Source: an uncultured Spirochaetales bacterium (GTDB lineage: Bacteria > Spirochaetota > Spirochaetia > Sphaerochaetales > Sphaerochaetaceae). Taken from it: a stretch of 64,000 nucleotides of DNA. The notes beneath the pieces are model-generated. The model was not told the DNA's origin. It saw only the letters and a program-made list of their open reading frames with translations, and ran no database searches. Position 1 is the stretch's first letter; each line of letters starts with the position of its first letter. Location of the stretch: positions 1 to 64,000 of the forward strand of contig CALXRC010000008.1 of the NCBI GenBank assembly GCA_944390865.1, written 5' to 3'. The position numbers and the translations under genes were made by a program. Positions 27,213 through 48,172 of this stretch are shown here, piece after piece.

Positions 27213-27339
27213 TTGATTACCTTGTTTGGAAAGTATGGACTAAAATTAGTGCCCTGACAATATTATTATCGCCAAGCTTAAATATGAAATTCTGCGGTAA
27301 GCAAGTTGTTGATCCGTGTGCCAATTTATACTGAACTTA

Positions 27340-27369
27340 TTGCCAGCTGCTTAGAAATGAGGCTAGAAT
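27340..27369 (+). promoter_or_regulatory. Promoter of the epimerase-wzy-gtrII unit
   Basis: TTGCCA (27340-27345), an 18-nt spacer and TAGAAT (27364-27369) lie 9 nt before ATG 27379. The predicted 5' leader is only about 2 nt. Confidence 0.5.
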
Positions 27370-27378
27370 TACAAAACC

Positions 27379-28446: not shown

Positions 28447-28461
28447 ATTTCATTTAGGGGA

Positions 28462-29805
28462 ATGAGCAGAATGAATAGAAATTCAGTTTTGTCTTTTTTT
28501 GATGTCCATTGGTTATTATCTATCACAATTGCATCAATTGCTGTTTTACAATTTGGAGTCTTCAGTACTTTAGGTTTAGTGCTGTATGGAGTTTTACTGG
28601 CGTATAATTTTGTTGGGATTATTTTAAATTGTAAGAATAAAAGAATTAATTGGACTTTCACTTTTGTTACTGGTGCTGGTTATTTTCTTTATTATATTTT
28701 TGCATCCCTTTTTAACGGTAATTTCATTGATATTGCTTCTGTGCTTTTTCAGTATTTGCTGATTTTTATCATTTCTTTTTTTATAAGGGATGAGAAATAC
28801 ATTGAAAAAGATTTTTTATCATTAGCAAAAATTTTAACAATCTCAGGATTGGCCATGGCTGTGTTGTCTATCTTGCTAGCTGTCTTCAGCACAGCTTTTC
28901 CTGACTTTTTTTCGAGTTTGCCTGATTATGAGGTATTTTATGAATTAAAAAAAAGAACATGCAATATAGCTGTTGACAGATTGGTAGGTTTTGGAGGAAA
29001 TCCTATTACAACAGCCTTTTATTGTTATGTAAGTGTTGCTTTCTCAATTTACCTTTTATCAAGAACAGTACGTTTTGCATGGAAAATAACAGCTTTATGT
29101 AATTTTATTATTTCGTCGTTCACTATATCATTCCTTGCAAGAAGCCGCACTTACATGGGTGCATTAGCAACTTTCCTAATAATATATTTTTTTATTTATT
29201 ATTGTGTGATAAATAAAGATAATCCCCGAAAATGGAAAAACTTTAAAATCATTCTGACTTTAGCTTTTATATTGTTCGCACTCTTCCTGATTCTCTTCTT
29301 TGTTTCTAGTGAGTTCAAATCTTTCATTCTGAATGATGTATTGCGTATTCAAAATATCAATACAATAGGAAATCGTGAGTATATTTTTGAGAATTCACTT
29401 GCAGCAGGTGATGGGCATAGGTTGTTTGGTATTAATACAAGAGAATTTGAGAAAGAAGTAGCATATCATACTCATAATATGTATTTGGAAATATTGACAT
29501 TTGGAGGTGTGCCTAGTCTAGTTTTGTTCATGCTGTATACAGTTTCTGCAATTATTGTTAGTGTTAAAAATTTTATTTTTAAGAACCACATATCACAAGT
29601 TTGTCTGGTTATTAACTGCCTTGCTCTAGCATATATCATCAGCTATCTGGTTGGAGGCATTTCAGAGCCTGGAGCTGTGCGCTCAATGAGAATTGCTTTT
29701 CCTGTATATAATACCATGATTGCAACGGTTTGCGTAATTAGAGCTAACTCTATTAATAGTGAGACATTACCATTTAAGAAATATAAACTGCATACGGAAA
29801 AATAA
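28462..29805 (+). CDS. O-antigen polymerase/ligase-like (Wzy) membrane protein
   Basis: A 447-aa polytopic protein with roughly ten or more hydrophobic segments and the Wzy_C-like periplasmic signature HTHNMYLEILTFGGVPSLVLF near residue 330. Wzy polymerises lipid-linked repeat units at the outer face of the inner membrane. The gene is strongly AT-rich compared with the epimerase before it, a sign of recent import. AGGGG (28456-28460) lies 1 nt before ATG 28462 but 10 nt before ATG 28471, so the protein may start three residues later. The next gene starts directly after its stop. Confidence 0.78.
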   Translation: MSRMNRNSVLSFFDVHWLLSITIASIAVLQFGVFSTLGLVLYGVLLAYNFVGIILNCKNKRINWTFTFVTGAGYFLYYIFASLFNGNFIDIASVLFQYLLIFIISFFIRDEKYIEKDFLSLAKILTISGLAMAVLSILLAVFSTAFPDFFSSLPDYEVFYELKKRTCNIAVDRLVGFGGNPITTAFYCYVSVAFSIYLLSRTVRFAWKITALCNFIISSFTISFLARSRTYMGALATFLIIYFFIYYCVINKDNPRKWKNFKIILTLAFILFALFLILFFVSSEFKSFILNDVLRIQNINTIGNREYIFENSLAAGDGHRLFGINTREFEKEVAYHTHNMYLEILTFGGVPSLVLFMLYTVSAIIVSVKNFIFKNHISQVCLVINCLALAYIISYLVGGISEPGAVRSMRIAFPVYNTMIATVCVIRANSINSETLPFKKYKLHTEK

Positions 29806-31557
29806 ATGAAAAAGTTTTTTGATACTGCTGCGAAAAAATTATGTATTTCTCTTTATGTAATTAGCTTAGCCCTTTGTTGTTTTGTAGGGTCACCTTTTAT
29901 TATAGATTTAATTGTGGAGACTGTCGGTGGAACGAGCAAGGCTGGTTGGTATTTGTACATGCCAAGATTGGTTAGAACTGTGTTTTTTGATTGTACAGTT
30001 GTCTTTGGCATTTGTTATTCCAGACTCGTATCAAGCCGGATCAAAAACTATTGGCACAGTAATTTTGTATATTTCAGAACCAAACTGAAATCAAAAGAAA
30101 TAATTAATAAAAGAAACGGTATTATACTTTTAATTCTTTTTGCTGTTTCCCTTATCGGGTTTTTTGCATTGCTTCGTGCTGATGTGAATTATATTGATGA
30201 TATAAGACACAATACATCAACCCATTACGAATGGTTAAACAAAGGGCGAATAGGGATTATACTATCAAATTTATTTATTCAGACTGGATATACATTAGGT
30301 GACAGATCCCCAATAAATCAGCTTATTGCAATACTTTGTCTTGATTTATCTGCAATAATCCTAGCTTATGTTTTCTCTAAACTTTTCAATAAAGAAAAAA
30401 TAAAAATCCTTAGTGTTGTTGCTAGTTCCATTGTTATCTTTAATCCTTATTTTCTTCAGTGTTTATCTTACAAGTATGAATCAGCTGGTATGGGAATTTC
30501 TGTTTTATTGGCAGTATTCCCATTTTTAGTACTTGAGAATAAAAAGTCATTCTATTGCTTATCAGCCATTTCTATTTTTCTGATGTGTACTTTCTATCAA
30601 AGTTCAAACACTATTTTTATTTTATTAGTTTTGTGCATTGGATTCATAGTTTACTGCTTAGATAATAGAATTAGAGTAAAAGAAATAATTGAATTTTATT
30701 TTAAATCTGCAGTTTCATTCATTATTGGAATGGGCAGCTTCTATCTTTTGATAGCGAATTTATCTTTCAATGGCCCAGATAGAGAGAATGGTGATTTTGC
30801 ATTTGGCTTAAATATCATAAATAATATTAAGCAATATATTGTTACGGGTTTTAATGATTTTCCTGGTTGGTGGGAAATTTTGATTTTACTGCTGGTAGCT
30901 GCTTCTTTCGTTTCAATAGTTTTATTATCAAAAAGGAGCAAGATTCAGACTTTCTGCCTTTATCTGTTGACATTGCTTGTTTCTGTGATATTTGCAAATG
31001 GGGCTTTTGTGATTCTCAAAGACTTTGGAGATAGGGCTAGGTATTTGTATGGAGGAATAACGCTGATTGCATTGATAGCAAATATTGCAGTTATGTCGAA
31101 TAAAATTGTTCTAAGCTTACCAGCCTGTTTGCTTGCATGGTCTTTTTTTTCCTATGCATCAGCGTATGGTAACGCTTTAGGCTTTGACAGTGAGTATACT
31201 GATTTTATGGAAAAACAAGTTTTGAGTGATATCAATGAGTTTTTCCCAGCAGATATGTATCCAGAGCTTCAGATTGTTTTTTCTGGAGATACAAACAATT
31301 TATTGCCTGTTGAATATTTGATTGAAGAGTATCCAATTACGGAAAGAATGATTACAGGGTTTCTGCATTATGATGGAGTCCCAATCAGCTCTTTCTGGGC
31401 TGTTAGACATTTTATTTATTATGACAATACTTTATCTCCTGCAGAAACAAATTATGAGCCAAATCCTGACGATGGAAGATTGGTTGTGAGTAAAAGGTAT
31501 TATGATCTTTACTTCCATCAGCCTGATATAATACAGGTGGTGTTCAAGAAGCTATAG
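29806..31557 (+). CDS. GtrII-type glucosyltransferase domain membrane protein, paralogue 1
   Basis: A 583-aa membrane protein with multiple helices. The segment ALLRADVNYIDDIRHNT matches the conserved acidic loop of the GtrII (Glucos_trans_II) family, and SYKYESAGMGISVLLAVFPF is shared with the 44.7-kb paralogue. GtrII enzymes transfer a sugar from undecaprenyl-phosphate-sugar, made by GtrB, to surface polysaccharide in the periplasm. The start ATG follows the wzy-like stop without a gap, so translation is probably coupled. AT-rich like its neighbour. Confidence 0.8.
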   Translation: MKKFFDTAAKKLCISLYVISLALCCFVGSPFIIDLIVETVGGTSKAGWYLYMPRLVRTVFFDCTVVFGICYSRLVSSRIKNYWHSNFVYFRTKLKSKEIINKRNGIILLILFAVSLIGFFALLRADVNYIDDIRHNTSTHYEWLNKGRIGIILSNLFIQTGYTLGDRSPINQLIAILCLDLSAIILAYVFSKLFNKEKIKILSVVASSIVIFNPYFLQCLSYKYESAGMGISVLLAVFPFLVLENKKSFYCLSAISIFLMCTFYQSSNTIFILLVLCIGFIVYCLDNRIRVKEIIEFYFKSAVSFIIGMGSFYLLIANLSFNGPDRENGDFAFGLNIINNIKQYIVTGFNDFPGWWEILILLLVAASFVSIVLLSKRSKIQTFCLYLLTLLVSVIFANGAFVILKDFGDRARYLYGGITLIALIANIAVMSNKIVLSLPACLLAWSFFSYASAYGNALGFDSEYTDFMEKQVLSDINEFFPADMYPELQIVFSGDTNNLLPVEYLIEEYPITERMITGFLHYDGVPISSFWAVRHFIYYDNTLSPAETNYEPNPDDGRLVVSKRYYDLYFHQPDIIQVVFKKL

Positions 31558-31567
31558 ACTTATAATG

Positions 31568-31599
31568 GGCATTCATTTTCTGGAAAGGAAATGAATGCC
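31568..31599. terminator. Bidirectional terminator between convergent genes
   Basis: A perfect 11-bp stem (31568-31578 with 31589-31599, 10-nt loop) lies between the gtrII-like gene and the convergent GT32 gene and overlaps the latter's stop. A T-rich run follows on the + side (31600-31610). Confidence 0.7.
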
Positions 31600-32490
31600 A
31601 TTTGTTTCTTCTGCAGAATCAAGCTCAGGAACTTTATTTGATTTCCAGTTAAGCTTCTGGATTTCATTTTCCATCATTGCCTTATTGTATTCAGTTTCGT
31701 TGTAAGGCTTATTCCAGTTGTATGATAAGTAGAAAATGTTCTTATTGTCCTGATTTACAGAATCAATCAGCTGTTTTGCCCAGGCAAAATGAGAATACAA
31801 GTAAAGCCATGTATAATCAAATTGAAAATAGCAGAAGTGATGGTCGTGAAATTGGAAGTAGTAGGTAAAGGCTTCAGATAATGCTGATACAAGAGGGTTT
31901 CCTCTTCCTGCTGCAATGAAAAATGATGTCCATTTCCCTTTTGTAAACAACCAGTTTGGAGTATAGCTTCCACTATAGAAAAAATTATTTCTCAGGCCAG
32001 ACAGAAAATCATTATGCGTTATGAATACTGTCGCATCACACCATATTCCACCATGTTTTGCCAGCAATTGTGTTCTCAGTATATCTGCAAGATCTTGAAT
32101 TGTTAAACTGCCAGCTTCAAAAAGCTTTTTCAGGTGCGGAGCAAAGTCAAAATAATCCTCAAGGTTGTTCTTGTCCAAAAGGATAAGGTTTACATCTTTA
32201 ATTCTTTTTATGTTCTCTACACATTTTTTTACAATTAGAGGTGCCATTTCAAATCCTGAATACCAAAACAGCCATACATTATTTCCAATCGGCTCCAATG
32301 TGCTTAAATCTATATCGCTGTATTTCTCTTTAAGCATTGATCCTACAGTATGATCCAGAACTTTCATTGCAATTGCAGTCTTCAAGGAATCAATGCATCT
32401 GTATATCTTCCTGCATGAGTTCTTTTTCCACAAAGCCTTAAATGAAGTTACTCTATATAAATAGCAGCTTAGTTTTGTTAATCGGCTCAT
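31573..32490 (-). CDS. Capsular polysaccharide synthesis glycosyltransferase (GT32), paralogue 3
   Basis: A 305-aa Caps_synth/GT32 protein closely patterned on the 26.3-kb copy: NNVWLFWYSGFEMAPLIVKKCV, LLDKNNLEDYFDF, LAKHGGIWCDATVFITH and SYNWNKPYNETEYNKAM. The Asp of CDATVF is the expected metal/donor ligand. It sits 3' of the Wzx-like flippase gene on the minus strand. Its ribosome site is weak. Duplication and divergence of this family within one locus suggests each copy adds a different residue of the repeat unit. Confidence 0.82.
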   Translation of the reverse strand: MSRLTKLSCYLYRVTSFKALWKKNSCRKIYRCIDSLKTAIAMKVLDHTVGSMLKEKYSDIDLSTLEPIGNNVWLFWYSGFEMAPLIVKKCVENIKRIKDVNLILLDKNNLEDYFDFAPHLKKLFEAGSLTIQDLADILRTQLLAKHGGIWCDATVFITHNDFLSGLRNNFFYSGSYTPNWLFTKGKWTSFFIAAGRGNPLVSALSEAFTYYFQFHDHHFCYFQFDYTWLYLYSHFAWAKQLIDSVNQDNKNIFYLSYNWNKPYNETEYNKAMMENEIQKLNWKSNKVPELDSAEETNGIHFLSRK

Positions 32491-32527
32491 ATTCTTATTA
32501 TCATGAAAACTAGAGCATATTACAACT

Positions 32528-34069
32528 TCATGCTTCTTTCTTGAATAAGAATTTCCTTACAGCCTTGTATGCCTGCTTAACATATATGTTCTTCCTATAG
32601 AGTATAAAGAATACAAGCGCAGAGATGAGAAGAGACACGGTAAAGCGTAATATGATTGCCAAAATGCCTGCGTATGGCAGGAAGCTGGTAATATAATACG
32701 TTGACAGCATCATTATTATTACCATCATCAATCTTGCCATATTGTAAATAATGTACTTTGTTGAGTGTGTCTTGAATCCTTTATTGAAAATTATTTTGGG
32801 TTCAATTATCAGATCAATGCAGAAATAGGTGAGAGCTGTTCCCAATATGATACCGTTCAGTCCCATGAAGTTTGCAAAGATAATTGAAAAGACAAGGTTT
32901 GCAACTCCAGAAATGATAGGTCTCTTCCTGTCGAACCAGAATAGGCCCAGAGATGATTTATATGTATTGAATATCGATTTGTTGCTTGACAGGTAAAAAA
33001 CGAGACACATCAGGAAAGCTGAAGAAAAGGGGAGGCATCTGTCAATGCCAAAGAAAGTGGCGATTAATGGGTTTATTATATTTGCTAAAACAATTGTAAA
33101 TAGTCCATATACGATGAAAAAGCATGTATCAATTGACTTGTAGCTATCTGCAACTTTCTGTGATGATTCCACCGCGCCCATGTTCCCAAGAGATGCGGTT
33201 ATTGCATTGGGTAGAATTCGGACAAAGCTATACAAGCCATTTGTTATCATCTGGTAGTTAGAATATAGACCAAGCACTGCGGAACTTACGAAAGTACTGA
33301 TGAGGATACTGTCTGATGAATTGACTAATGCGCTGCCAATTCGTGACATCATCAGTCCTTTGATATTGCTGAACATGGCGTCTTTGCTCTCTTTGCTGAG
33401 CTTTACAGTCACTTTTCGTTTCAGATATTTGAACTCTTTAGTTGCAAGATGCCTGAGGAACAGACACCTGCTGGTATCAAATACTAAGATGCAAAGTGAA
33501 TACAGCAAGAAGCTTCCAGTGAAAATGGAGACTCCGATTTGAGTCAGGTACATTGCTGCATGGAAAATATTTACAGCAAGTGTTATCTTGTATCGTTCCT
33601 GATTTGCCTCAATGAGAATCTGCTTGTAAGAAAGGTAGAACTCAAAGACTGTGCCTAACAGGAAAATTATGAAATAAAGCCTGACATTATTAATTTGAAC
33701 TGTTGTGTTAACAAAAAAAGACAAAAATGGCGTAAAGACTAAACCGCCAACAAGAATTATTGTGCCTACAACCGCGTAAACACGCTTGTAGAAGCTCATG
33801 ATTGCACATATTTCATCATAGTTGTCTTCTGCAAGCGGTTTGTACAATGCATAGGCAATCGCAACATTGAGCCCAAGATCTGCAACGGATAATACCGAGA
33901 TTACATTTCTGAAAAGGCTGTAAAACCCAAGATAGTCCGAAATGAAATACTGGTTGAAAACCATGCGCTCCAAAAAGCTGACAACACCCATGATAACTTG
34001 GGTAATTACTGCCGTTGAAGCGTTTATTGTAGAGTTCTTAAATCTTGACTCGTTGCTGTTATCTGCCAT
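32528..34069 (-). CDS. Wzx-like oligosaccharide flippase
   Basis: About 513 aa with 12 or so membrane helices and the MOP/PST superfamily layout: NSTINASTAVITQVIMGVVSFLERMVF at the first helix, SDYLGFYSLFRNVISVLSVADLGLNVAIAYALY, and repeated Ile/Phe-rich helices to the end. Wzx flips undecaprenyl-linked repeat units to the periplasm for Wzy. ATG 34069 is preferred to 34105 because AGGAA lies about 6 nt upstream. The gene is AT-rich. With the Wzy-like gene at 28.5 kb it makes a Wzx/Wzy assembly route plausible. Confidence 0.8.
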   Translation of the reverse strand: MADNSNESRFKNSTINASTAVITQVIMGVVSFLERMVFNQYFISDYLGFYSLFRNVISVLSVADLGLNVAIAYALYKPLAEDNYDEICAIMSFYKRVYAVVGTIILVGGLVFTPFLSFFVNTTVQINNVRLYFIIFLLGTVFEFYLSYKQILIEANQERYKITLAVNIFHAAMYLTQIGVSIFTGSFLLYSLCILVFDTSRCLFLRHLATKEFKYLKRKVTVKLSKESKDAMFSNIKGLMMSRIGSALVNSSDSILISTFVSSAVLGLYSNYQMITNGLYSFVRILPNAITASLGNMGAVESSQKVADSYKSIDTCFFIVYGLFTIVLANIINPLIATFFGIDRCLPFSSAFLMCLVFYLSSNKSIFNTYKSSLGLFWFDRKRPIISGVANLVFSIIFANFMGLNGIILGTALTYFCIDLIIEPKIIFNKGFKTHSTKYIIYNMARLMMVIIMMLSTYYITSFLPYAGILAIILRFTVSLLISALVFFILYRKNIYVKQAYKAVRKFLFKKEA

Positions 34070-34195
34070 TCTTATTCCTGAAGCTTTCCGGTAGGAAAAT
34101 TTCATTTCGAGTTTTAGATAAAGATGTTTCTAGCATATTTACCACTTATGTACAACTCGCGAGGGATTGCGCAAATCATTTGAGAACAGGCTGGT

Positions 34196-35395
34196 TCACT
34201 GTTTGAACTCTTTCTCATAGACTGCAGCACAATGCAGGACATTATCTGCTATGTCTCTGACAACGCCGGCCCCGCCTTCTTTCAGCGATACATAATTGAC
34301 AACTCGTTTAACCTTTTCAACAGCATCTGTAGGACAGCAACTGTATCCAGCCGCTTTAAGGAGTTCTTCATCATTAATGTCATCGCCAATATAGAGTACA
34401 TTGCTGAGTTCCAGATTGTTTTCCTTGCAAAGCTTTCTTACTGCTTCCAGCTTGTTCCTGCATCCGGGAACATAAAAATCCAGTTTCAGCTTATCTGCCC
34501 TGCGGCGGTTAAGCTCAACATTCTCGCCTGTGACAATCCCTGTCAGATAACCGCACTTTCTGAGGATTGAAAAAGCCATGCCGTCACGCGTGTTGAATTT
34601 CTTCAGCTCATCTCCGTTTTCTGAATAATACATTCCGCCATCTGTAAGGCAGCCATCACAGTCTGTAAGCACGAGCTTAATATTCTGGAGATCCGCCTGT
34701 TTGTCGAGGCCTTTCTTTTTCATCAATGCTTCGATAATAAGCCAGTCAGACGGTTCATCAATCTCGAAGAATGAATCTTCATCCATTTCAACAGCCCGTA
34801 TTCTTCCGCTTACACGGTTCTTTGTCTTCAGCAGATCTTCTTTCGATGTTATGTAAAAAGCTCCGTTTTCAACCAGATAGCCATCAAACTCCTGTCTGCG
34901 GGGGCGATGGAAAACATCATAGTTGGTTGGGCGGGCGATTCCATTCTCATCAGTCATCCAGTTGAATCGCTTCTGTCTTACAACAGACAGCACGCTGTCT
35001 GTATCTGATCTGCCAAAAAGCTCAAAGCCTTTATCAAGAGCATCGCTGGTCAGCAATGGAGATGTAGCCTGGACAAGAACGATAATGTCGAAGCTGTATT
35101 TTGCAGCAAACTCAAGCATGGCTGACTCAGTGGAGGCTGTGTCTGAAGCTGATTCTGCCGAGCGGCCGATTATCTGAAGCTTTCTGAAAATATCATTTTC
35201 CTCTTTGAACTTAAGTGCGGCCTCTTTTATCTTGTCACTGTCAGTTGCGACATAGACGACATCAATATGCTTGCATTCACAGGCTGCCTTTACTGTCCAG
35301 TAGACAAGCGGTTTGTCGCAAATAGGTTTAATGTTTTTCAGTGGAATTGATTTGCTGCCGCCGCGGACAGGAATAAATGCAACGTTCATAATCAT
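34196..35395 (-). CDS. Bifunctional CMP-nonulosonate synthetase / KdsC-like HAD phosphatase
   Basis: A 399-aa fusion. Residues 1-225 are an acylneuraminate cytidylyltransferase (NeuA type) with IPVRGGSKSIPLKNIK and LVQATSPLL. Residues 240-399 are a HAD phosphatase of the KdsC/8KDOP class with nucleophile/acid pair Asp245 and Asp247 (DCDGCLTDGG), TGIVTGENV and GDDINDEELLKAAG. Animal CMAS proteins and some bacterial enzymes have the same order of domains. The protein would activate a nonulosonic acid with CTP and may dephosphorylate its 9-phosphate precursor. Its HAD half closely resembles the stand-alone protein at 53.2 kb. A second ATG (35389) has better ribosome-site spacing. Confidence 0.86.
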   Translation of the reverse strand: MIMNVAFIPVRGGSKSIPLKNIKPICDKPLVYWTVKAACECKHIDVVYVATDSDKIKEAALKFKEENDIFRKLQIIGRSAESASDTASTESAMLEFAAKYSFDIIVLVQATSPLLTSDALDKGFELFGRSDTDSVLSVVRQKRFNWMTDENGIARPTNYDVFHRPRRQEFDGYLVENGAFYITSKEDLLKTKNRVSGRIRAVEMDEDSFFEIDEPSDWLIIEALMKKKGLDKQADLQNIKLVLTDCDGCLTDGGMYYSENGDELKKFNTRDGMAFSILRKCGYLTGIVTGENVELNRRRADKLKLDFYVPGCRNKLEAVRKLCKENNLELSNVLYIGDDINDEELLKAAGYSCCPTDAVEKVKRVVNYVSLKEGGAGVVRDIADNVLHCAAVYEKEFKQ

Positions 35396-35406
35396 AGTCT
35401 CCTGTT

Positions 35407-36372
35407 TTACTGTTCAAGACATAGTGCGTCTGTCTCAATGATTTTCTCAATCATGCAGTTTTCTTTGATTTTCTCTTTTTTCAATTTATATGTACACTTG
35501 CTGAATGAAGGATTCAAGCGTTTATATTCTTCAACGATATTCTGGCTGTATTCTTCATAAAATTTATCTGCAATGAAAAATACTTTTTCTCTTGGGAAGA
35601 CGGCACACGCATCAACTAACTCTTTCATGTGCTTGTTTCGTCTGTAAATACACTCTAAGTATATATCTGTTAAGAAATAGTCTAAATGTATATTGTTATG
35701 TTTCCAATATGAAGCCAGCAGTTCCTTCATTATTGCGAACAAGGATGAGTTTTTATATCCTCCAAAACAGAATATGCTCCATCTGTCTAGTCCAAGAAAC
35801 TTTGTAAAAAACCTTGCAGAAGCATCAATCCGGATTGTGTAGTAGGGGAGAAAGAAAATGCTTTCCTCAATATCTCTTGTGGTCAGCATTGTTGCATCCA
35901 GCCAGAGTCCTCCATATTTCTCAAGCAATGCAAACCGGACTATATCGCTGAAAAGGGCTATGGGAATTAACCCTTTATCCAGTTTTTCATAGATATACGA
36001 AGGCAAATCAATGAGTTTTGAGACATTCTCTTTATCAACAGTTATCACAGGATGCTTGCCGCAATGCCTCAACAATGCATTGTGGCAGCATTTTATAACT
36101 GGCGGGGCATTGTTAAGTCCCTGATACCAGAAAACGAAGATCGGCGGATTCTCAACTTGTTCTCCATTTGTCCAAGAAGACTCATATTTCCTGAAAATTT
36201 CTTCCTGATTCTCATTCAGAATTCTGATGATGGAATTGTGATAGCTGTCTTTGAAAAAGCCGAAGACTTTTCTCGTCAGTACAGTGTCTTTTCTTTGGCA
36301 GAGCCCGTCAAAAGTGTTTTCTATTGTATCCTTTATCTTTAGTGACAAAGGGATCTTATTGAAATTCCACAT
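35407..36372 (-). CDS. Capsular polysaccharide synthesis glycosyltransferase (GT32), paralogue 4
   Basis: A 321-aa Caps_synth/GT32 protein: PIFVFWYQGLNNAPPVIKCCH, LIDLPSYIYEKLDKGLIPIALFSDIVRFALLEKYGGLWLDATML with the metal-binding Asp. The LDLPSYI and SDI-R spacing resembles the 20.7-kb copy rather than the 26/31-kb pair. It lies between the CBS-cupin gene and the CMP-sugar synthetase gene with gaps of about 11 nt, in one minus-strand operon. Confidence 0.82.
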   Translation of the reverse strand: MWNFNKIPLSLKIKDTIENTFDGLCQRKDTVLTRKVFGFFKDSYHNSIIRILNENQEEIFRKYESSWTNGEQVENPPIFVFWYQGLNNAPPVIKCCHNALLRHCGKHPVITVDKENVSKLIDLPSYIYEKLDKGLIPIALFSDIVRFALLEKYGGLWLDATMLTTRDIEESIFFLPYYTIRIDASARFFTKFLGLDRWSIFCFGGYKNSSLFAIMKELLASYWKHNNIHLDYFLTDIYLECIYRRNKHMKELVDACAVFPREKVFFIADKFYEEYSQNIVEEYKRLNPSFSKCTYKLKKEKIKENCMIEKIIETDALCLEQ

Positions 36373-36383
36373 GTTGCTTACAG

Positions 36384-37151
36384 CTATACTCTCCCATAAA
36401 TATCTTCATATCTGATTATATCGTCTTCACCAAGATAATCTCCGATCTGAACTTCAGTTATAATCAGGCTCTCTTGGCTATCTGTATTAGTCAGCCTGTG
36501 TTTTGCCTGTTTGGGAATAAAAACAGTACTCCCCGTAGAAACAGGGATAACAGAGTTGTCAACATTGACAATTCCTTTGCCATGAACAACTATCCAGTAT
36601 TCTTCTCTGTGCTGATGCGACTGCAGGCTCAGCTGTGCCATTGGCTTGATTGTCAGAACCTTTGCCTGGTAATAATCTGTCAGGACAGTTGTCTTGTAAA
36701 AGCCCCATGGGCGGTTATAGATTTCACTGTCGAGGATCTTTGTATCAAGAGAGAGAAAGTCATAATGCAGATCCCCCTGTATATCCTGCAGGAGGTATGT
36801 ATGGAACTGTGATTTCGTGATGATGTTTACAAGTTTGCCATCATCATCTGTTATAGGCAGGAACTTTATCGCAGGGCTCTTGAACAGCTCTGTCACTTTT
36901 TCGAAGCCGTCTGACACATGAACAATAGCCGCAGATCTATTGAAAATATCTTCAATGCTGCTCTGCACTGGCTTCCCGCTGATCAGTGCACGTCTTACAT
37001 CTCCGTCAGTAAGAACGCCCATAACATTGTATTCATCGTTTACAACGATGACAAATCCAAGCTTGTTTGAATCAATTCTGCTCAGTGCCGTCAGGAGTTC
37101 TGCATTGGCAGTAACAGTGAATTTGTTCAGTTTCTCTGCGCTGTTTATCAC
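36384..37151 (-). CDS. CBS-pair protein fused to a phosphomannose-isomerase-type cupin
   Basis: A 255-aa protein. Residues 8-120 form a CBS pair (VIVVNDEYNVMGVLTDGDVRRALI, FLPITDDDGKLVNIIT). Residues 150-250 form a type II phosphomannose isomerase cupin as found at the C-terminus of ManC (RPWGFYKTTVL, KPMAQLSLQSHQHREEYWIVV, VFIPKQAKHRL). Related CBS proteins in nonulosonate loci usually carry a nucleotidyltransferase instead, so this combination is unusual. It starts with GTG (37151), with GGAG some 11 nt upstream. It could supply mannose-6-phosphate or regulate sugar flow. Confidence 0.75.
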   Translation of the reverse strand: MINSAEKLNKFTVTANAELLTALSRIDSNKLGFVIVVNDEYNVMGVLTDGDVRRALISGKPVQSSIEDIFNRSAAIVHVSDGFEKVTELFKSPAIKFLPITDDDGKLVNIITKSQFHTYLLQDIQGDLHYDFLSLDTKILDSEIYNRPWGFYKTTVLTDYYQAKVLTIKPMAQLSLQSHQHREEYWIVVHGKGIVNVDNSVIPVSTGSTVFIPKQAKHRLTNTDSQESLIITEVQIGDYLGEDDIIRYEDIYGRV

Positions 37152-37189
37152 AGTTGTATTTTCTCCAGATTGCGTGTGCTGTGCAAGAT

Positions 37190-38014
37190 TCAGTTTTTCA
37201 GGACGTCTTCAAGCCTCTTTCTGGGAAAAACTTCCAAGGCGCCGTCTCTTGTGACATTGTAGATATGAAAATCAAGGCCCTTTGCATCAATGTCTTCCTG
37301 CATGCTTTCGTAATCGATGATGAATTTCTCCATATCATCATTAGGCTTCAGGGCAAACTTTGATGTTGCGATGCCTGCTGCATGCCTGTGTCCAGGAGAG
37401 TAGGAACAGTCTGTTCCGATCAGATAGACCTCTGTAAACCCCATATAATAGGCAATCTGAATAATGGAATGAACGCAAGTGTGTCCGTCATAGATGAATG
37501 TACCTGCATCTGGACTCATTTTGCAGTAGTGCCCTTGCTTCTGATAGTGCTTCCATTTTGAATTTGCCTTGATGAAGTGGTTGTATCTGGACTTAAACCA
37601 TATTGCCTGATCTGGCATATTGCGGACCTGCATTTTGCTGTAGAGAACCATTGTTCCATCAGCAAGCATTTCATCAATGGCTTTCATTGTCGGCTCTGTA
37701 CATGCTTTCCCATCTGTGAGAACATAGCAGTCAGGCCGCCATTTTGTTTTTTCAAACAGCTGATAACATCTGTTCATCGAAAATGTGTATTCATGATGAT
37801 CGGCTAAGGCGTTTAAGTCATCAACTGTCAGACTCGGACCAAGGCCTACAATGAAACACCTCTGTCCCTTATGCGTGTCTTTCAGCGCAGTGAACCGCTT
37901 GTCCTGCCTGGTCAGGGCAAAACTGATATTTGTATACAGCAGGCTGAGCCCCGTGCAGTAGCCTACAAGGAAGTCCAGTAATGGATTGAATATTTCCTGA
38001 AGTGTTCTTTTCAT
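37190..38014 (-). CDS. MAF/DUF115-family protein, candidate nonulosonate transferase
   Basis: A 274-aa protein of the MptE-like/MAF_flag10 (DUF115) superfamily. The nucleotide-binding-like motif FIVGLGPSL lies at residues 54-62, NRCYQLFEKTKWRPDCYVLTD follows, then IIQIAYYMGFTEVYLIGTDCSY (185-205) and GHRH (208-211). The order resembles GT42 sialyltransferases of Campylobacter (AGNGPSL start, ALGYKEIYLSGID strand, a following GH-type catalytic His). Maf proteins of this superfamily transfer pseudaminic or legionaminic acid. With neuB and neuA homologues in the operon, transfer of a CMP-nonulosonate is the favoured inference. The start follows the GT2 stop without a gap. Confidence 0.6.
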   Translation of the reverse strand: MKRTLQEIFNPLLDFLVGYCTGLSLLYTNISFALTRQDKRFTALKDTHKGQRCFIVGLGPSLTVDDLNALADHHEYTFSMNRCYQLFEKTKWRPDCYVLTDGKACTEPTMKAIDEMLADGTMVLYSKMQVRNMPDQAIWFKSRYNHFIKANSKWKHYQKQGHYCKMSPDAGTFIYDGHTCVHSIIQIAYYMGFTEVYLIGTDCSYSPGHRHAAGIATSKFALKPNDDMEKFIIDYESMQEDIDAKGLDFHIYNVTRDGALEVFPRKRLEDVLKN

Positions 38015-38992
38015 TTATTTCTGGAATCTCTTAATGATCTTAAATGCAATTCGATAACAGCTTTCATTTGCTCCAAGCACAAAAGAAAGCAGCATCCCCC
38101 TCATATCAGGATAGGCTTTTCTGCTGTCTTCTCTCATTTTAGCCCGAAGAGTTAAGAAAAGATCCTTATCTCTAAGTAACCCGGTTGAATATCTGTCTAT
38201 CAGACCTAGATCCATCCTGAAGCAGCGCTCATAATAGGCATCCATGAGTTCTTTGTCCGCAGGAAGATTCTCAATTGCACTTTTTATATCCTTCAGTGCT
38301 AAATACTGGAAGTTCATTCTCTTTGTAAGTTCCAGACTTTTTGAACCGCCTTTTCTTATTCTGTAACTGTGGTGGACACCCCATCCTTTTGCGACTCTGT
38401 CTGCATTGGCTAATGTTCTGATTGTGAAGTCCTGATCCTGTCCGATTCTTCTGCCGGGAGTGAACCTGGACAGAATGTTCTTTTTGAATAGTCCATTCCA
38501 GACAAACATCTGAAAACCTTTTCTTGCTCTGAGGCAGTTTATAAGGGCTTCTTTTTTTGAGAACGTTTCAATGTGACTGTCTCTATGATCTTTTGGCGTG
38601 GATAAAAGTCTTCCATCTTCACTGACCCTTCTGAACGCACAGTAAGCTATGTCAGAATTGGTAGACGAGATAACATGGAACAAATATTCGATGAAGTCTG
38701 GATCAATATAATCATCTGCATCAAGGAAAGAAATAAATGCTCCAGATGCATTCTCTATTCCTGTATTCCTTGCACCGCTTAGACCCTGGTTCTCCTGATG
38801 GATTACTCTGACTCGGCTGTCAGCGGCTTTATACGCATCACAGATTTTTCCACTTTTGTCGGTGCTTCCGTCATCAACAATAATGATTTCCAAATTCTCA
38901 TAGGTCTGGCAAAGTATGCTGTCAATACATTGGTGCATATATTTCTCAACATTATAAACCGCCAGCAAAACTGATATTAATGGCCTGTCCAT
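38015..38992 (-). CDS. GT2-family glycosyltransferase
   Basis: A 325-aa GT-A enzyme starting PLISVLLAVYNVEKYMHQCIDSILCQTYENLEI, with the nucleotide-contact DDGSTD and DxD motif in FLDADDYID (about residue 92). The second half, beginning RIGQDQDFTIRTLANADRV, contains the acceptor-side ED/QDxD region. It adds one sugar to the lipid-linked repeat unit; specificity cannot be predicted. It lies 2 nt from the dehydrogenase gene upstream and abuts the MAF-like gene downstream. Confidence 0.85.
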   Translation of the reverse strand: MDRPLISVLLAVYNVEKYMHQCIDSILCQTYENLEIIIVDDGSTDKSGKICDAYKAADSRVRVIHQENQGLSGARNTGIENASGAFISFLDADDYIDPDFIEYLFHVISSTNSDIAYCAFRRVSEDGRLLSTPKDHRDSHIETFSKKEALINCLRARKGFQMFVWNGLFKKNILSRFTPGRRIGQDQDFTIRTLANADRVAKGWGVHHSYRIRKGGSKSLELTKRMNFQYLALKDIKSAIENLPADKELMDAYYERCFRMDLGLIDRYSTGLLRDKDLFLTLRAKMREDSRKAYPDMRGMLLSFVLGANESCYRIAFKIIKRFQK

Positions 38993-38994
38993 TT

Positions 38995-40245
38995 TTAGTC
39001 CTTCTGAAAAAGATCTCTTGTATAGACTTTTTCTTTCACATCTTCCAGCGTGCTGTCATAACGGTTTGCCATGATCACATCTGATCTTTTCTTGAACTCA
39101 TCAAGGTTGTTCACAACAAGGCTGCCGAAAAAGGTTGAGCCATCCTCAAGCACTGGTTCATAAATGATCACAGTTGCTCCCTTTGCCTTTACTCTCTTCA
39201 TCACTCCCTGTATTGATGACTGCCTGAAGTTGTCACTGTTTGACTTCATTGTCAGCCTGTATACTCCGATGACCACTTCATGCTCTTTTGTCTTGTCATA
39301 TGCATCATTCTCTGAATAGGCTCCTGCCAGTTCCAGCACTCTCTCTGCAATGAAGTCCTTTCTCGTCCTGTTTGACTCCACAATAGCTTCTATCAGATTC
39401 TCAGGCACATCCTGATAATTAGCAAGCAGCTGTTTCGTATCTTTTGGCAGACAATAGCCTCCATACCCGAATGACGGGTTATTGTAGTGGGTTCCGATAC
39501 GCGGATCCAAACAGACTCCGTCAATGATTGATTTCGTATCCAGGTCCTTCATCTCTGCATAAGTATCAAGCTCATTGAAGAATGAGACTCTGAGTGCAAG
39601 ATAGGTATTGGCAAACAGCTTGACTGCTTCTGCTTCCGTGAACCCCATGAAGAGGGTTTCGATGTTCTCCTTTATTGCTCCTTCCTGCAGCAGGGATGCA
39701 AACTCATGTGCCTTGGCTGTGAGCTTGCTGTCATTCAGATCGGTTCCCACGATGATCCTGCTGGGGTAGAGATTGTCATACAGGGCTTTTGATTCCCGCA
39801 GGAATTCCGGACTGAATATAATCCGGTCCGTATTGAACTTCTTCCTGACTGTCTTCGTATAGCCTACAGGTATTGTGCTCTTGATGACCATAATGCATCT
39901 GTCATTCACATCAAGGACCTGCTCAATGACATCTTCCACCGCACTTGTATCAAAGAAGTTTTTCTTTGAGTCATAGTTTGTCGGAGTTGAGATGATCACA
40001 TAATCAGCAGCTCTGTATGCATCATCACCGTTGACAGTTGCCTTCAGGCTGAGCTTTCTCTTTCCTGCTTTAGCCTCTTCAAAGAATGTCTCTATAAAGT
40101 CATCCTGAATAGGTGAGATGAACTTGTTTATCTTGTCCACCTTGTCCTGGATGATGTCAACGGCTGTCACATCATTGTGCTGCGACAGAAGCACTGCAAG
40201 CGATAATCCTACATATCCAGTTCCTGCTACTGCTATCTTCACCAT
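38995..40245 (-). CDS. ugd: UDP-glucose 6-dehydrogenase family protein
   Basis: A 416-aa UDP-glucose/GDP-mannose dehydrogenase: NAD motif [12 protein letters not shown] (6-17), the STIPVGYT strand, catalytic region [11 protein letters not shown] with the active Cys, and [20 protein letters not shown] in the C-terminal domain. The short 416-aa form with this C-terminus matches Ugd of gut and lactic bacteria. It oxidises UDP-glucose to UDP-glucuronate, substrate for the epimerase at 27.4 kb. ATG 40245 with upstream GAGGAAA is preferred; an in-frame extension to 40344 overlaps neuB and lacks family similarity. Confidence 0.9.
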
Positions 40246-40255
40246 TCTGTTTTCC

Positions 40256-41128
40256 TCAGTGTTTCCTGTATTTGAGCTTGTCGCGCTGAACCTGCTCAAT
40301 AGGAAGGATCTCTTCCTTCTTGTATGTGAGAGATTCATAGACATTGTTGAGATCCCTTACCAGCGACTTGATCCCATATGGCTCAAGAGATGCTGCATGG
40401 TCAGTTCCCTTCCATGTCCTGTCAAGCGTGTAATGCCTTTCAATGATATGAGCCCCAAGAGTGTAGGCTGCAACATCAACAGCAATGCCAAGATGATGTC
40501 CTGAGAATCCTATTGACTTCACTCTTGAACTGTACTTTTCCATAAGCCTCCTGATCTCAAGCAGACAGATGTCCTGATATGGAACAGGATAGCCTGAAGT
40601 GCAGTCAAAGATGACAAGATCCTTCGCCCTCCCATTGGCTTCAAACAGCTGCACTATCTTTTCTTCTTCCTCATGTGTCGTCATGCCGAATGACAGCTGT
40701 ATCTCTCCCTTGTAGTTGTCGCAGAGCCACTGAAGCATCTCAAAGTGTGTGTTGCATGCTGAGGGAATCTTGATGAACTGCGGCTTGAGAGATGCGATCT
40801 CCTTTGCGCTTGTCATATCCCATACAGAGGTAGAGTAGATAATCCCCGCCTGTTCGCACCATTCTTTCAGCTGTGCATGCTGGTCAACAGTGAACTCAAG
40901 TGCTTCTCTGTGTTCTCCATAGGTCTTGCCGTAGGAATTCTCAGGGTGGGGGTGAGGAGCATTGTACTGCTCTGGTGTAAGAAGCTCTTTCGGACAGCGC
41001 TTCTGGAATTTGATCGCATCTGCCTTGCAGTAGATCGCTGCTGTGTTGATCAGCTCATGTGCAATTTCCATCTCTCCCTTGTGATTGCATCCTGCCTCTG
41101 CTATTACAAACGGTTTCTCGTATCTCAT
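40256..41128 (-). CDS. neuB: NeuB-family nonulosonic acid synthase, copy 1
   Basis: A 290-aa TIM-barrel enzyme of the NeuB/SpsE family: [95 protein letters not shown]. It condenses PEP with a ManNAc- or mannose-type sugar (free or 6-phosphate). It ends about 50-60 residues earlier than typical NeuB, lacking the C-terminal SAF (antifreeze-like) domain. The coding DNA is identical, base for base, to the copy at 53662-54534, while flanking DNA is unrelated. Downstream gene is ugd (10-nt gap). Confidence 0.88.
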
Positions 41129-43210: not shown

Positions 43211-43615
43211 CTATTCAGTTTTCTTTGAGAAAACTAGCACTTTGCTTATTATATAATTGAGTATAATTACGATAACATTTGAACTGATTTTCATTATTAG
43301 ATTAGGCCAGTCTAAAATCGATACTGTTATAACCATAAACAATGTATCAAATATCCCTGTTGATAATCTTCCTAAAAAGAAGCTTATGCATTCTTTGCCT
43401 ATAGATTGAATGCCTTTTTTATTCGAGTGAAAAACAAATTTACGGTTGGTTGTATAAGCAAATAGGACAGAAAGAAACCATGCTGTTATGTTAGAGGTAA
43501 AAACGGAAATACCACATAAAACATTGCATACACCATATACTATGATGTTTATCAGTGTTGTAAGTGCTCCGAAAAAAAGATAAGCAATAATCTCTTTTAT
43601 CTTGGTGTTGTCCAT
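43211..43615 (-). CDS. GtrA-family flippase-like membrane protein
   Basis: A 134-aa protein with four hydrophobic segments of the GtrA/DPMS family (AYLFFGALTTLINIIVYGVC, TTNRKFVFHSN). GtrA is thought to flip undecaprenyl-phosphate-glucose made by GtrB. AAAGGA upstream of ATG fits. It is divergent from gtrB-like and gtrII-like genes across a 99-bp gap, instead of in the usual same-strand gtrA-gtrB-gtrX order. AT-rich. Confidence 0.82.
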   Translation of the reverse strand: MDNTKIKEIIAYLFFGALTTLINIIVYGVCNVLCGISVFTSNITAWFLSVLFAYTTNRKFVFHSNKKGIQSIGKECISFFLGRLSTGIFDTLFMVITVSILDWPNLIMKISSNVIVIILNYIISKVLVFSKKTE

Positions 43616-43714: not shown

Positions 43715-44695
43715 ATGAGAAATACAATGCATTCTCCATGCCTTTATATTGTTATTCCTTGTTATAATGAAGAAGAAGTTTTGCCTGTAACTTTACCGAT
43801 GTTCAAAAAGCAGTTAGCTGATATGCAAGCAGATGGGCTTATATCAGAAAAAAGTAAGATTTTACTTGTAAATGATGGAAGTAAAGATAAAACTTGGGAT
43901 CTGATTCGTACTGCAGCAAAAGAGAATTCTAATGTCGATGGGATTTCGCTTAGCCGAAATCGTGGACATCAGAATGCATTGCTTGCAGGACTGATGGAAG
44001 CAAAAGATAAATGTGATATTACTATTTCGATTGATGCAGATGGACAAGATGATATATCAGTAATGACTGATATGGTTAAATCATATTTGAATGGTGCTGA
44101 AGTTGTTTACGGAGTTCGCTCTTCAAGGAAAAAAGACACTTTCTTTAAACGGTTTACCGCAGAATCATTTTACAAACTTTTATCAGCAATGGGAGCAGAG
44201 ATTGTTTTCAATCATGCTGATTACCGATTGGTGTCATCTCGCGTGCTGAAGGAGTTTTCATCCTTTAAGGAGGTAAATTTATTTTTGAGAGGGCTGATTC
44301 CACTTGTTGGATTTAACAGTTCTTCTGTGTTTTATGAGCGCCATGAAAGGCTTGCAGGCAAAAGTCATTATCCATTTACTAAAATGCTTTCACTTGCCAT
44401 TGATGGAATAACAAGTCTTTCAACAAAGCCGTTGAGACTTGTTTTTATAATCGGGCTAACTGTCTCCATATTAAGTTTTATTGGAATAATTTGGGCTATT
44501 ATTATGGTTATTCTAGGGACAACGGTTGCTGGTTGGGCAAGTACCGTTTGTGTTGTTTGTTTTATCGGTGGAATTCAAATGGTCTGCCTTGGGGTAATAG
44601 GGGAATATGTTGGTAAGACTTATCTGGAAGTAAAGGCTAGGCCTCGTTTCATAATTAGTGAACGTACAAAGGATAACTCCAACAATCTAGGATAA
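43715..44695 (+). CDS. GtrB-like undecaprenyl-phosphate glycosyltransferase (GT2)
   Basis: A 326-aa protein. The GT2 domain spans residues 8-230 (YIVIPCYNEEEVLP, LLVNDGSKDKTW, DADGQDD) and two C-terminal membrane helices lie at about 235-300 (LVFIIGLTVSILSFIGIIWAI and the following stretch). This is the DPM1/GtrB layout that charges undecaprenyl phosphate with glucose or another sugar for GtrII-type enzymes. It is followed 10 nt later by the gtrII-like gene. Strongly AT-rich. A second ATG lies four codons downstream. Confidence 0.87.
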   Translation: MRNTMHSPCLYIVIPCYNEEEVLPVTLPMFKKQLADMQADGLISEKSKILLVNDGSKDKTWDLIRTAAKENSNVDGISLSRNRGHQNALLAGLMEAKDKCDITISIDADGQDDISVMTDMVKSYLNGAEVVYGVRSSRKKDTFFKRFTAESFYKLLSAMGAEIVFNHADYRLVSSRVLKEFSSFKEVNLFLRGLIPLVGFNSSSVFYERHERLAGKSHYPFTKMLSLAIDGITSLSTKPLRLVFIIGLTVSILSFIGIIWAIIMVILGTTVAGWASTVCVVCFIGGIQMVCLGVIGEYVGKTYLEVKARPRFIISERTKDNSNNLG

Positions 44696-44705
44696 GGATT
44701 AACTA

Positions 44706-46329
44706 ATGAGGGTTTTAACGCTTATAAGAGCCGAGTGGCGTGAATGGAAAGCCGAAACACAATTGATTACAAAGCGGAATTTGTGTTTTTTATTAATTGC
44801 CTTTTTAATAATATTTGTTGGTTTTTTTTCAATAATAAGAGCAGACTTCAATTATATTGATGATTTGAAAAGAAATATTAGTGGATGGGGTGAATGGGGT
44901 ATCAATTTTTTTCGCTGGTTTCTATTTCTTGAAAATTATCTATTGCAGTTTAATATTTGGCTCGCCGATGCCTCTCCGTTAAACCAATTTGTGGCAATGG
45001 CCATTCTCGCTTGCTGCTGCGTGCTAACTGCTTTTATTTTAACTAGAAGCTTTTTATCTTCAATTACTTCAGGAGACAGCAAATTCACGGGAAAACCCGG
45101 ATATCAAGAGAATGATGCAAATAATATTAATAACTCAAAAAAGTCTCTGGACTCCGGAAAAGAAATTTCTATTCCATGTTTCATTTCCAGCTTAGCTGTT
45201 GCCTTTAATCCTTATTTTTTAGAATGTATTTCATATAAATATGAATCTGTGGGAATGGCAACTTCTATTTTTCTTGCAATCATTCCTTTTCTTTTTCTAG
45301 AAAAAAAGCACTTGTATTTAATTGTAAGCTTCTTTTCAATTTTACTGATGGCATTGACCTATCAAGCGTCAGCTGGTATTTATATAATACTTGTAATTGT
45401 TTTGGGTTTAATTAAATACCTGAAATCAGAGGAAGAGAAATTTCGAGATCTTTTATTTTTCTATATTCAATCAGCATTTGCTTTTATATTACCTTTGCTG
45501 TTGTATTACTTTTGTGCATTGACATTTGCAACTCCGTATAGAGATATTTCTATAATTTTCAATCCATTTGCATGGGCAAATAATTATTTGACGTTAATAG
45601 GAATTGTGCTTAATGACTTCAATCCTGTTTGGCTTATTCTTGTTGCACTATGCATCGTGCTTTCAGCTTTTTCATTGATAGGTGTTTCTCAAAGGCCGAA
45701 GCTCTATAGTGTTTTCTTAGTAATAACCGCATTGTTGCTATGTTCTTTTTTCTGTATTGGACCTTATATTGCGCTGAAGGACCCTACTACTGAAGCTCGC
45801 ATGATTTATGGTGTTGGATTCTTGATCGCTTTATTTGCGATTTTTCCAACCATGATGAAGCTGTCTGCCACCCCCCCCCCACCACCATTATGAAAAAATT
45901 TTGGTTGTACCATCTCTGTTGCTTACATGGTGTTTCTTTGTATGTTCTTTTGTATATGGAAATTCTCTTAGTGCTCAAAAAGACTATGAACATATGTATG
46001 AAACGATAATCATTGATGATCTAATACATAATGTCATTGATGATAAGGATGCGATGTATGAACTTGGTGTAAGGGGAACTGCCGGTATAAGCCCTGCAGT
46101 ATTGAATTCGATTAAAAGATTTCCTGTTATTGATCGGTTAGTCCCTTCTTTGCTAGACGGATTCTGGATATGGTCTGGTTATACATTAACACGATATTAT
46201 CTACCCAATATAGCAAAGGTAACTTCAGATTACAATTTTGTATCTGATAACTTTGAGCTGCTGGTTGAAAATGCATATTATAAGATATGGCTTAACAATG
46301 AGAACATTATCATTGTTGACTTTAAATAA
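44706..46329 (+). pseudogene. GtrII-type glucosyltransferase, split by a C10 tract (phase-variable, OFF)
   Basis: The first frame (44706-45893) encodes a GtrII-like membrane protein with IIRADFNYIDDLKRN and SYKYESVGMATSIFLAIIPF, then ends abnormally in ATPPPPPL at a run of ten C (45871-45880). The C-terminal part continues in the next frame to 46329 (HHHYEKILVVPSLLLTWCFF), which aligns with the 29.8-kb paralogue (NKIVLSLPACLLAWSFF; both then have a YGN segment). Removing one C (or adding two) restores a single frame of about 540 aa. Slipped-strand mispairing in such tracts is a known ON/OFF switch for surface-glycan genes. With C10 the gene reads OFF. AAGGA precedes ATG 44706. Confidence 0.85.
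45871..45880 (+). repeat. Poly-C tract (C10), candidate phase-variation switch
   Basis: Ten consecutive C within the gtrII-like coding sequence; the frame is restored with nine or twelve. It is the only G/C homopolymer of this length noticed in the window. Confidence 0.85.
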
Positions 46330-46332
46330 TAT

Positions 46333-47997
46333 TTATACTGATTCGTATATTGATCCGCCCAGGAACTCTCTTGTAATAGAATCAGCAGGAATCTCAGTTG
46401 CAGGGATTGTACAGATGAGCTCAAGGAATTTCAGAAGCCTTCTTGCTGTTGCAAATGCATAGCCTGATTCCGGTTTGACTGAGCGCAGCAGGTTCATTGC
46501 CTGAGGCGCCAGTGCTGACAGCTCATATGGCATGGCGCTGTTGATCATGACATCAGCATTGTTCTGATATGGGAAGATGTGATTTTTCTCTCCCCGTTCA
46601 ACAGAGGGCCACATGGAAAGCGTGTCTTCAGTCGGTATTGCCCGTGTCCTGTTGTCCCTGACAAGGCGGCGCAGCATTCTGTTGTCTGTTGTGCTTATCC
46701 TGTTGTGATCATCAATGATCATGCTTGTGAGTGCCGAGATGTAGATCTTAAAGCAAAGCGATGGATCAAGCTCAGGCGTCAGCGCGGGGTTGAGTCCGTG
46801 TATGCCTTCAATGATCAGTATTGAACTGGGGTACATGACAGTTTCCTCTTCTCTCATATACCTCTTGTTTTCCTTAAAGGAAAAAGAAGGCAGCAGTGTC
46901 TTGCCGTTCTCAATCAGATCATGAAGATTCTGCCTGAAAAAGCTTAGATCCAGAGCTTCCAGTGCTTCATAATCCTTCTTGCCTTCATCATCGACAGGGA
47001 CAAGCTCTCTGGTAAAATAATAGTCATCAAGGGATATCTTGATGGGATCATAGCCCAGCACTCTGAGCTGCTGGGCAAGCTTCAGTGAAAAGGTTGTTTT
47101 CCCGGATGAAGAAGGTCCCGAGATGAAGACTGCTTTGACAGTGCCTCTTGAATGGATTTTCTCGGCAGTGTCAAAGATCCTGGCATTGAACATCGCTTCA
47201 GACAGCTGAATCAGCTCTCCTGCCTTGCCGTTCAGGATTATCCTGTTCAGGTCTCCAAGTGATTCGCACTTGAGAATCTTGTTGTCTGAACTTGTTTTCC
47301 TGAATACTGAGAAGAGAAGGGGATTGTCAGCAAATGGCTTTATGGCACTGAACTGGTTTGACTGCGGATAACGCAGCAGCATGCCGTCTTCATATTGCCT
47401 CAGATCCCAGACAGTGAGCACAGATGTGTTATAGACAAGCGGCTCATAAGCCATATCGTAATACTTGCCCAGTGTGTATGTTGTAATATCCCCATCACTG
47501 ATTGTATCAAGCAGCTGATATGTATGTCTGAATGCTTCCTTGCTGAAGATCTCAGCAGCCTCAGGGTATGGTATTTTTTCCCTTGTAATTAGTAATGCTT
47601 TATTTGCTGTTTCTTTCATGAAAGAAGAAAGTGCTTCTATTTCTTCTTTTGCTGCTTTGCTGTCAGTGAATTCAAAGTAAAAGCCATCACCGAGGCTGTG
47701 ACCAATCTCTAAGTGATGCTGTGGAAAAAGACAGGCTGCTGCATATGAAAGAAGGAAACAGATTGAGTGCCTGTATATTCTCTTGCCCAGCGGCGAGAAC
47801 AGACGGATTGCCTCAATTGTTGTGGATCTGTAGATAAGAGAGTAGTGCAGGCTCTTGAATTCCCCGTTTATCAAAGCGCCTATGACAGGATTGTCCTGAT
47901 ATTCAGGCTTATCTGGAGCTTTCAGAAACTCTCTTACGCTCACTCCTCTTTCAACCTGATATGTCTTGCCTTCATAAAGAACAGTAACTTTTTCCAT
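46333..47997 (-). CDS. Uridine kinase-family protein with TGS/ThrRS-like N-terminus
   Basis: About 554 aa. The N-terminus is a TGS-like domain (VTVLYEGKTYQVERGVSVREFL), followed by a threonyl-tRNA synthetase second-additional-domain-like region (HHLEIGHSLGDGFYFEF). The C-terminal half is a phosphoribulokinase/uridine kinase P-loop domain (FISGPSSSGKTTFSLKLAQQL, SLDDYYF, ILIIEGIHGLNP). This architecture is known as a nucleoside kinase in Treponema, Clostridium and Thermotoga and phosphorylates uridine or a similar substrate. ATG 47997 starts exactly at the TGS domain; a longer frame to 48126 is rejected. No Shine-Dalgarno sequence is present and a TATATT lies 7 nt upstream. Confidence 0.85.
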   Translation of the reverse strand: MEKVTVLYEGKTYQVERGVSVREFLKAPDKPEYQDNPVIGALINGEFKSLHYSLIYRSTTIEAIRLFSPLGKRIYRHSICFLLSYAAACLFPQHHLEIGHSLGDGFYFEFTDSKAAKEEIEALSSFMKETANKALLITREKIPYPEAAEIFSKEAFRHTYQLLDTISDGDITTYTLGKYYDMAYEPLVYNTSVLTVWDLRQYEDGMLLRYPQSNQFSAIKPFADNPLLFSVFRKTSSDNKILKCESLGDLNRIILNGKAGELIQLSEAMFNARIFDTAEKIHSRGTVKAVFISGPSSSGKTTFSLKLAQQLRVLGYDPIKISLDDYYFTRELVPVDDEGKKDYEALEALDLSFFRQNLHDLIENGKTLLPSFSFKENKRYMREEETVMYPSSILIIEGIHGLNPALTPELDPSLCFKIYISALTSMIIDDHNRISTTDNRMLRRLVRDNRTRAIPTEDTLSMWPSVERGEKNHIFPYQNNADVMINSAMPYELSALAPQAMNLLRSVKPESGYAFATARRLLKFLELICTIPATEIPADSITREFLGGSIYESV

Positions 47998-48172
47998 ATA
48001 GCAAAATATAATATGAATAGGCAAAGGGTGCAAAGGAATTAGTTTATGCGCCGATGACTTCTGATTATTGTTTACAGTGTATTGGCTGCTGGCAGTGCAA
48101 TCATGAAACGTATCTCCTGATTTCAAGCCAGCTGCCTGGTCTCATACCCGCTGGCCTGCTCTGATACCGCAG

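Follow-up and report, generated by a model that had tools for sequence, protein, structure and literature searches.

The window, that is, the whole stretch of 64,000 nucleotides that was analysed, belongs to contig C8 of a 1.96-Mb draft assembly with 44 contigs. On its forward strand, positions 44706–46329 hold a split gtrII gene for a GtrII glycosyltransferase, which is interrupted about 70% along its length by a frame-shifting run of ten C (C10, 45871–45880) with an in-frame stop at 45891–45893. The initial annotation had described a GtrII-like frame ending in ATPPPPPL at ten consecutive C, and this was confirmed. The open reading frame 44706–45893 encodes 395 aa with the C-terminal end KLSATPPPPPL, and it matches the Pfam family PF14264 (GtrII) with an E-value of 1.7e-32 and 113 bits (cut-off 30) over profile positions 2–315 of 317. 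The 5′ part of the gene (44706–45870, forward strand) carries the full domain and nine membrane helices predicted by hydropathy. The 3′ part (45881–46329, forward strand) is in another frame; it is predicted to contribute the final membrane helix, followed by a soluble tail some 120 residues long.

The continuing downstream frame stays open over 45859–46329 and contains no stop after the tract, compared with 10 and 22 stops in the other two frames. Its last 149 codons are both open and homologous, in a different frame from the 5′ part. An intact paralogue of 583 aa at 29806–31557 (forward strand; PF14264, E = 2.2e-32; no C/G tract) served as an internal control. The 5′ part is 34% identical to this paralogue in a match ending at residue 430, and the 3′ part matches residues 435–581 with 26% identity over 147 residues. 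Since the two parts match adjoining regions of the same protein, the halves meet at the tract, and the earlier claim that the missing C-terminus continues in the next frame and aligns with the 29.8-kb paralogue held. The 3′ part also matches the C-termini of 14 GtrII homologues (the paralogue and 13 from other genomes of the class; best E = 1.6e-15), all of which run in a single uninterrupted frame with no C/G run longer than five; no such run occurred in any of the 17 homologues examined from other genomes. Across approximately 540 codons of gtrII, the break at the tract is the sole lesion, and any tract length that is a multiple of three gives one frame of that size, in agreement with the restoration of about 540 aa stated before.

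Hydropathy places the C10 tract a few residues behind the ninth helix and ahead of the final one. An additional residue should be tolerated at this position because it would fall into a loop between two predicted helices. The product of the OFF state is predicted to lack the last helix and the tail. The N-terminus of gtrII is shorter than in most homologues, with homologous sequence from about residue 11 versus about residue 90 in the paralogue, and for this reason the ON form may be short of full function. A sequence search found no relative of the paralogue in the PDB, and its AlphaFold model (three rows) reached a pLDDT of 38.5, too poor for use.

Only 10 bases upstream of gtrII ends an intact gtrB gene (43715–44695, forward strand), encoding a GT2 polyprenyl-phosphate glycosyltransferase (PF00535) whose nearest solved structure is sll0501 (PDB 5ekp, E = 1.1e-55); both genes presumably belong to one operon. 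Divergent from gtrB, on the reverse strand, gtrA (43211–43615; PF04138, E = 2.1e-19) encodes a flippase-like membrane protein. The assignment as GtrII made in the initial annotation is borne out by the PF14264 and homologue matches and by these two neighbours. A surface-glycan cluster at 26310–41128 was assigned by Pfam and NCBIfam and comprises three Caps_synth glycosyltransferases, Wzy-like and Wzx-like proteins, NeuB, a cytidylyltransferase, a UDP-sugar dehydrogenase and a GT2 protein. Within the window, 34196–41128 carries genes of nonulosonic-acid type (NeuB, cytidylyltransferase, CBS/MannoseP_isomer) together with an MptE-like protein (PF01973). Judging from the GtrII family and the surrounding glycan cluster, a surface polysaccharide is the probable substrate. 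The GC content of gtrA, gtrB and gtrII is 30–37%, compared with 44.5% for the window. The attribution to a spirochaete is supported, as the adjoining conserved gene (46333–48126) is closest to uncultured Spirochaetales at 66–68% identity.

A first-order chance model was applied to the gtrII gene (34% GC) and to the window. The expected number of C/G runs of at least 10 was approximately 1.4e-4 in the gene and 0.011 in the whole window, and besides C10 no further C/G run longer than five was found in the 64 kb. Of the four A/T runs of 8 in the window, the one at 44822 falls in the uninterrupted 5′ part of gtrII and the others within intact frames, so that a general misassembly of homopolymers is not evident.

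A search of 60 relatives yielded no orthologue of the split gtrII, peptide patterns of the gene had no match in 85,000 GTDB genomes, and the DNA flanking the tract, searched in IMG/VR for a second copy with another tract length, had none either. The congener G001 has gtrA (67% identical), gtrB (76%) and one gtrII akin to the 29.8-kb copy (approximately 59–61%), with gtrII being absent beside gtrB.

Similar tracts were present elsewhere in the genome. In a census based on pattern searches and fetched stretches, 10 C/G tracts of at least 9 were counted where 1.7 would be expected, along with three tracts of exactly 8. Besides gtrII, two of these tracts split genes. A G9 interrupts a phage-type N6/N4 DNA methyltransferase (PF01555) immediately before its DPPY motif (L030:5562–6310, on contig C1 at about 135561–136310). 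The start of the protein (MERIVKYGEIYKLGDHRLMCGDSTM...) and the DPPY motif are in different frames on either side of the G9, and a homologue on an IMG/VR viral contig is read in a single frame through the same region, which makes the gene a candidate phase-variable phage methyltransferase. By eye, the surrounding stretch looks like a prophage. The other G9 cuts the signal peptide of a small secreted protein, whose gene heads a series of four for secreted proteins, none with a Pfam match (L032:5098–8212, contig C17). Each of the three split genes of this genome is OFF as assembled, and restoring their frames would take shifts in differing directions.

Six of the ten tracts of at least 9, plus the 8-base tracts on C9 and C31, are positioned between a −35-like TTGACN and a −10-like TAnnnT hexamer, with poly-G/C of 8–10 in spacers of 15–19 bases. 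These candidate phase-variable promoters, recognized by their sequence pattern, are found at C2:1265–1289, at C24:9839–9862, 10650–10676, 13638–13660 and 14956–14979 (L029, L027), at C23:24799 (L033), at C9:68481 (L034) and at C31:18715 (L035). The genes that follow are lipoprotein-like in seven of the eight cases and, in the remaining one, a GntR-like regulator named by eye. A G14 on C4 is intergenic. Loss of mismatch repair was rejected as the cause of long tracts, as MutS1 is present in the congeners and intact in the own genome; a raised slippage rate is therefore not to be assumed. Codon usage proved too weak a criterion for scoring the tract flanks, given the AT-rich and atypical glycan cluster, and was dropped.

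Across 16 genomes, 98 tracts of at least 9 were counted, 88 of them in fifteen congeners, compared with only 42 of exactly 8. From 42 tracts of 8, approximately 10 longer ones would be expected at the C-to-C frequency of 0.20 in the window. This excess is the reverse of a chance decay and indicates that long tracts are generated and retained. The pattern TTGAC-N2..12-G8-N0..8-TA occurred in 10 of 16 congeners and its reversed control in 0 of 16. In total, 33 distinct promoter-like sites with a poly-G/C spacer of 14–20 bases (mostly 15–17) were collected; a lipobox protein follows at least 25 of them, and closely similar copies in congeners carry G8, G9 or G10. Intragenic tracts of congeners, with gene models derived from open frames and for some from Pfam matches, were found in both frame states. 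In frame were those in a lipoprotein (L150), a Wzi-like protein (L155), a beta-barrel protein in two species (L164, L215), an acyltransferase (L191), a GT4 glycosyltransferase (L197) and a DUF1156 methyltransferase (L226), and out of frame were those at L154, L166, L182 and L225, with lipoprotein genes among these cases. Such coexistence of both states would be predicted for switches, whereas conserved coding runs would not show it.

In congener G001, G9 tracts at four places close to the ends of contigs (L203, L205, L207, L208) adjoin the same mobile-element-like end, TGAACTGACCCCCTGAAGGTAGACACGAAACGGGCC; in one of these cases it has taken the place of the upstream side of a promoter found uninterrupted in G012 (L099). 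A mobile element with an insertion preference for poly-G promoters is possible. In other families of the class, the poly-G promoter pattern was present in 96 of 297 genomes, against a control background that was low but above zero. It was frequent in several other genera and families (e.g., groups g16, g79 and g32), with up to 19 matches per genome and few control matches.

Three explanations other than switching were considered for the broken gtrII. An error of tract length in the assembly, with the true tract in frame and the gene simply intact, is unlikely. It would fit a single draft assembly in 44 contigs, given that homopolymers are the classic site of length errors and that a consensus may choose one length from a mixture. 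However, several unrelated tracts of 9–10 are out of frame in separate congeneric assemblies while others are in frame, and the A/T runs of 8 in the window fall within intact frames; moreover, so long a tract is itself improbable and would be a slippage site in any case. We also regard a plain pseudogene as improbable, i.e., a permanent frameshift in a second, species-specific gtrII copy gained by horizontal transfer. The gene is indeed a second copy of low GC content with an intact paralogue, its counterpart beside gtrB is absent in G001, and its N-terminus is shorter than in homologues. However, the 149 downstream codons are still open and homologous with no further lesion, and the break coincides with a run that is itself very unlikely by chance and of a kind recurring in surface genes of the genus.

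A third possibility is programmed slippage, ribosomal or transcriptional, which could provide a constant low level of full-length enzyme together with the short form from one DNA sequence. In its favour, successive CCC codons are in principle slippery, and the tract is where the two frames overlap. We consider this highly improbable, as the split genes of this genome require shifts in different directions and many tracts of the genus are in promoter spacers, where recoding is meaningless; in addition, the run is absent from all homologues examined.

Most likely, gtrII is a gtr gene whose phase varies by slipped-strand mispairing and which the assembly has captured OFF. A random switch is probable because the species and its relatives carry many C/G runs in the promoters and genes of surface proteins. 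As in contingency genes, a homopolymer far beyond chance sets by its length the frame of a surface gene, and the same kind of tract is found at other surface genes of the organism. The phase variation proposed in the initial annotation is strongly supported by the genome and genus context, namely the promoter spacers, the surface-protein, glycan and methyltransferase genes and the presence of both frame states, while at the gtrII locus itself, represented by one assembly, it is a probable reading. Here, we infer the variation in tract length, the loss of activity of the short form and the identity of the sugar and acceptor of GtrII.

According to the proposed mechanism, replication slippage at the intragenic tract would add or remove C residues. 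With a tract length that is a multiple of three, GtrII of approximately 540 aa would be produced, and with other lengths translation would stop within a few codons past the tract or proceed in the wrong frame, so that the product would be without its predicted final helix and long C-terminal tail. GtrB would load the sugar onto a lipid carrier, GtrA would flip the loaded lipid, and GtrII would transfer the sugar to the surface polysaccharide in the periplasm. One surface decoration would thereby be switched on and off among cells, with the assembled genome representing OFF.

With respect to the genus, we consider it probable that gtrII is one switch within a genus-wide poly-G/C repertoire of approximately 100 tracts of at least 9 in 16 genomes. 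This repertoire would be both transcriptional, with poly-G between the −35 and −10 hexamers of lipoprotein genes, and translational, within glycan-modifying, outer-membrane and DNA-methyltransferase genes, and it would diversify surface glycans, lipoproteins and DNA methylation together in a genus that is probably host-associated. The wider repertoire of this uncultured genus and the class-wide promoter pattern are the part most worth following. If true, an uncultured spirochaete lineage would join the organisms that randomize their surface by homopolymer slippage, beyond the well-studied pathogens, and concrete loci are named for counting tract lengths in existing metagenome reads. In draft genomes, such switch genes would then be labelled pseudogenes.

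Phase variation by C/G homopolymers in glycan genes, phase variation of gtr genes and poly-G variation in spirochaetes are already known; our literature search found no paper linking Sphaerochaeta with phase variation. In Neisseria, lipooligosaccharide genes vary in phase through intragenic poly-C/G. The flagellin-glycan gene Cj1295 of Campylobacter likewise varies by an intragenic C/G homopolymer (PMC3068675). The likeness to both is that a homopolymer of approximately 9–10 within a surface-glycan gene determines the frame, whereas in this work the gene is a GtrII (PF14264) of an uncultured spirochaete with the tract about 70% along, and switching is proposed. The gtr operons of Salmonella are phase variable as well, in an epigenetic manner via Dam/OxyR at the promoter (PMC2909390). 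The locus described here shares with the gtrA/gtrB/gtr(type) loci of Shigella and Salmonella the same three kinds of genes and a long, here predicted, soluble C-terminal tail past the last helix, but it has a C tract in the coding sequence instead of Dam/OxyR promoter switching, and gtrA is divergent from gtrB-gtrII.

In Bifidobacterium breve, a G-tract switch of a pilus was demonstrated by maximum-depth sequencing (PMC9187656). This gut commensal also carries the G tract within a gene whose frame is restored by slippage; however, this is a Gram-positive pilus locus at which switching was shown, compared with the sequence of one assembly in our case. Treponema pallidum is likewise a spirochaete, in which poly-G length varies within strains at the promoters of tprE/G/J, tp0126 and tprL (PMC7864442), the tp0126 tract being located between −35 and −10. 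There, the tracts are in promoters before outer-membrane proteins, in contrast to the coding tract in a glycan enzyme in gtrII, while the other tracts of this genome are closely like the tp0126 kind.
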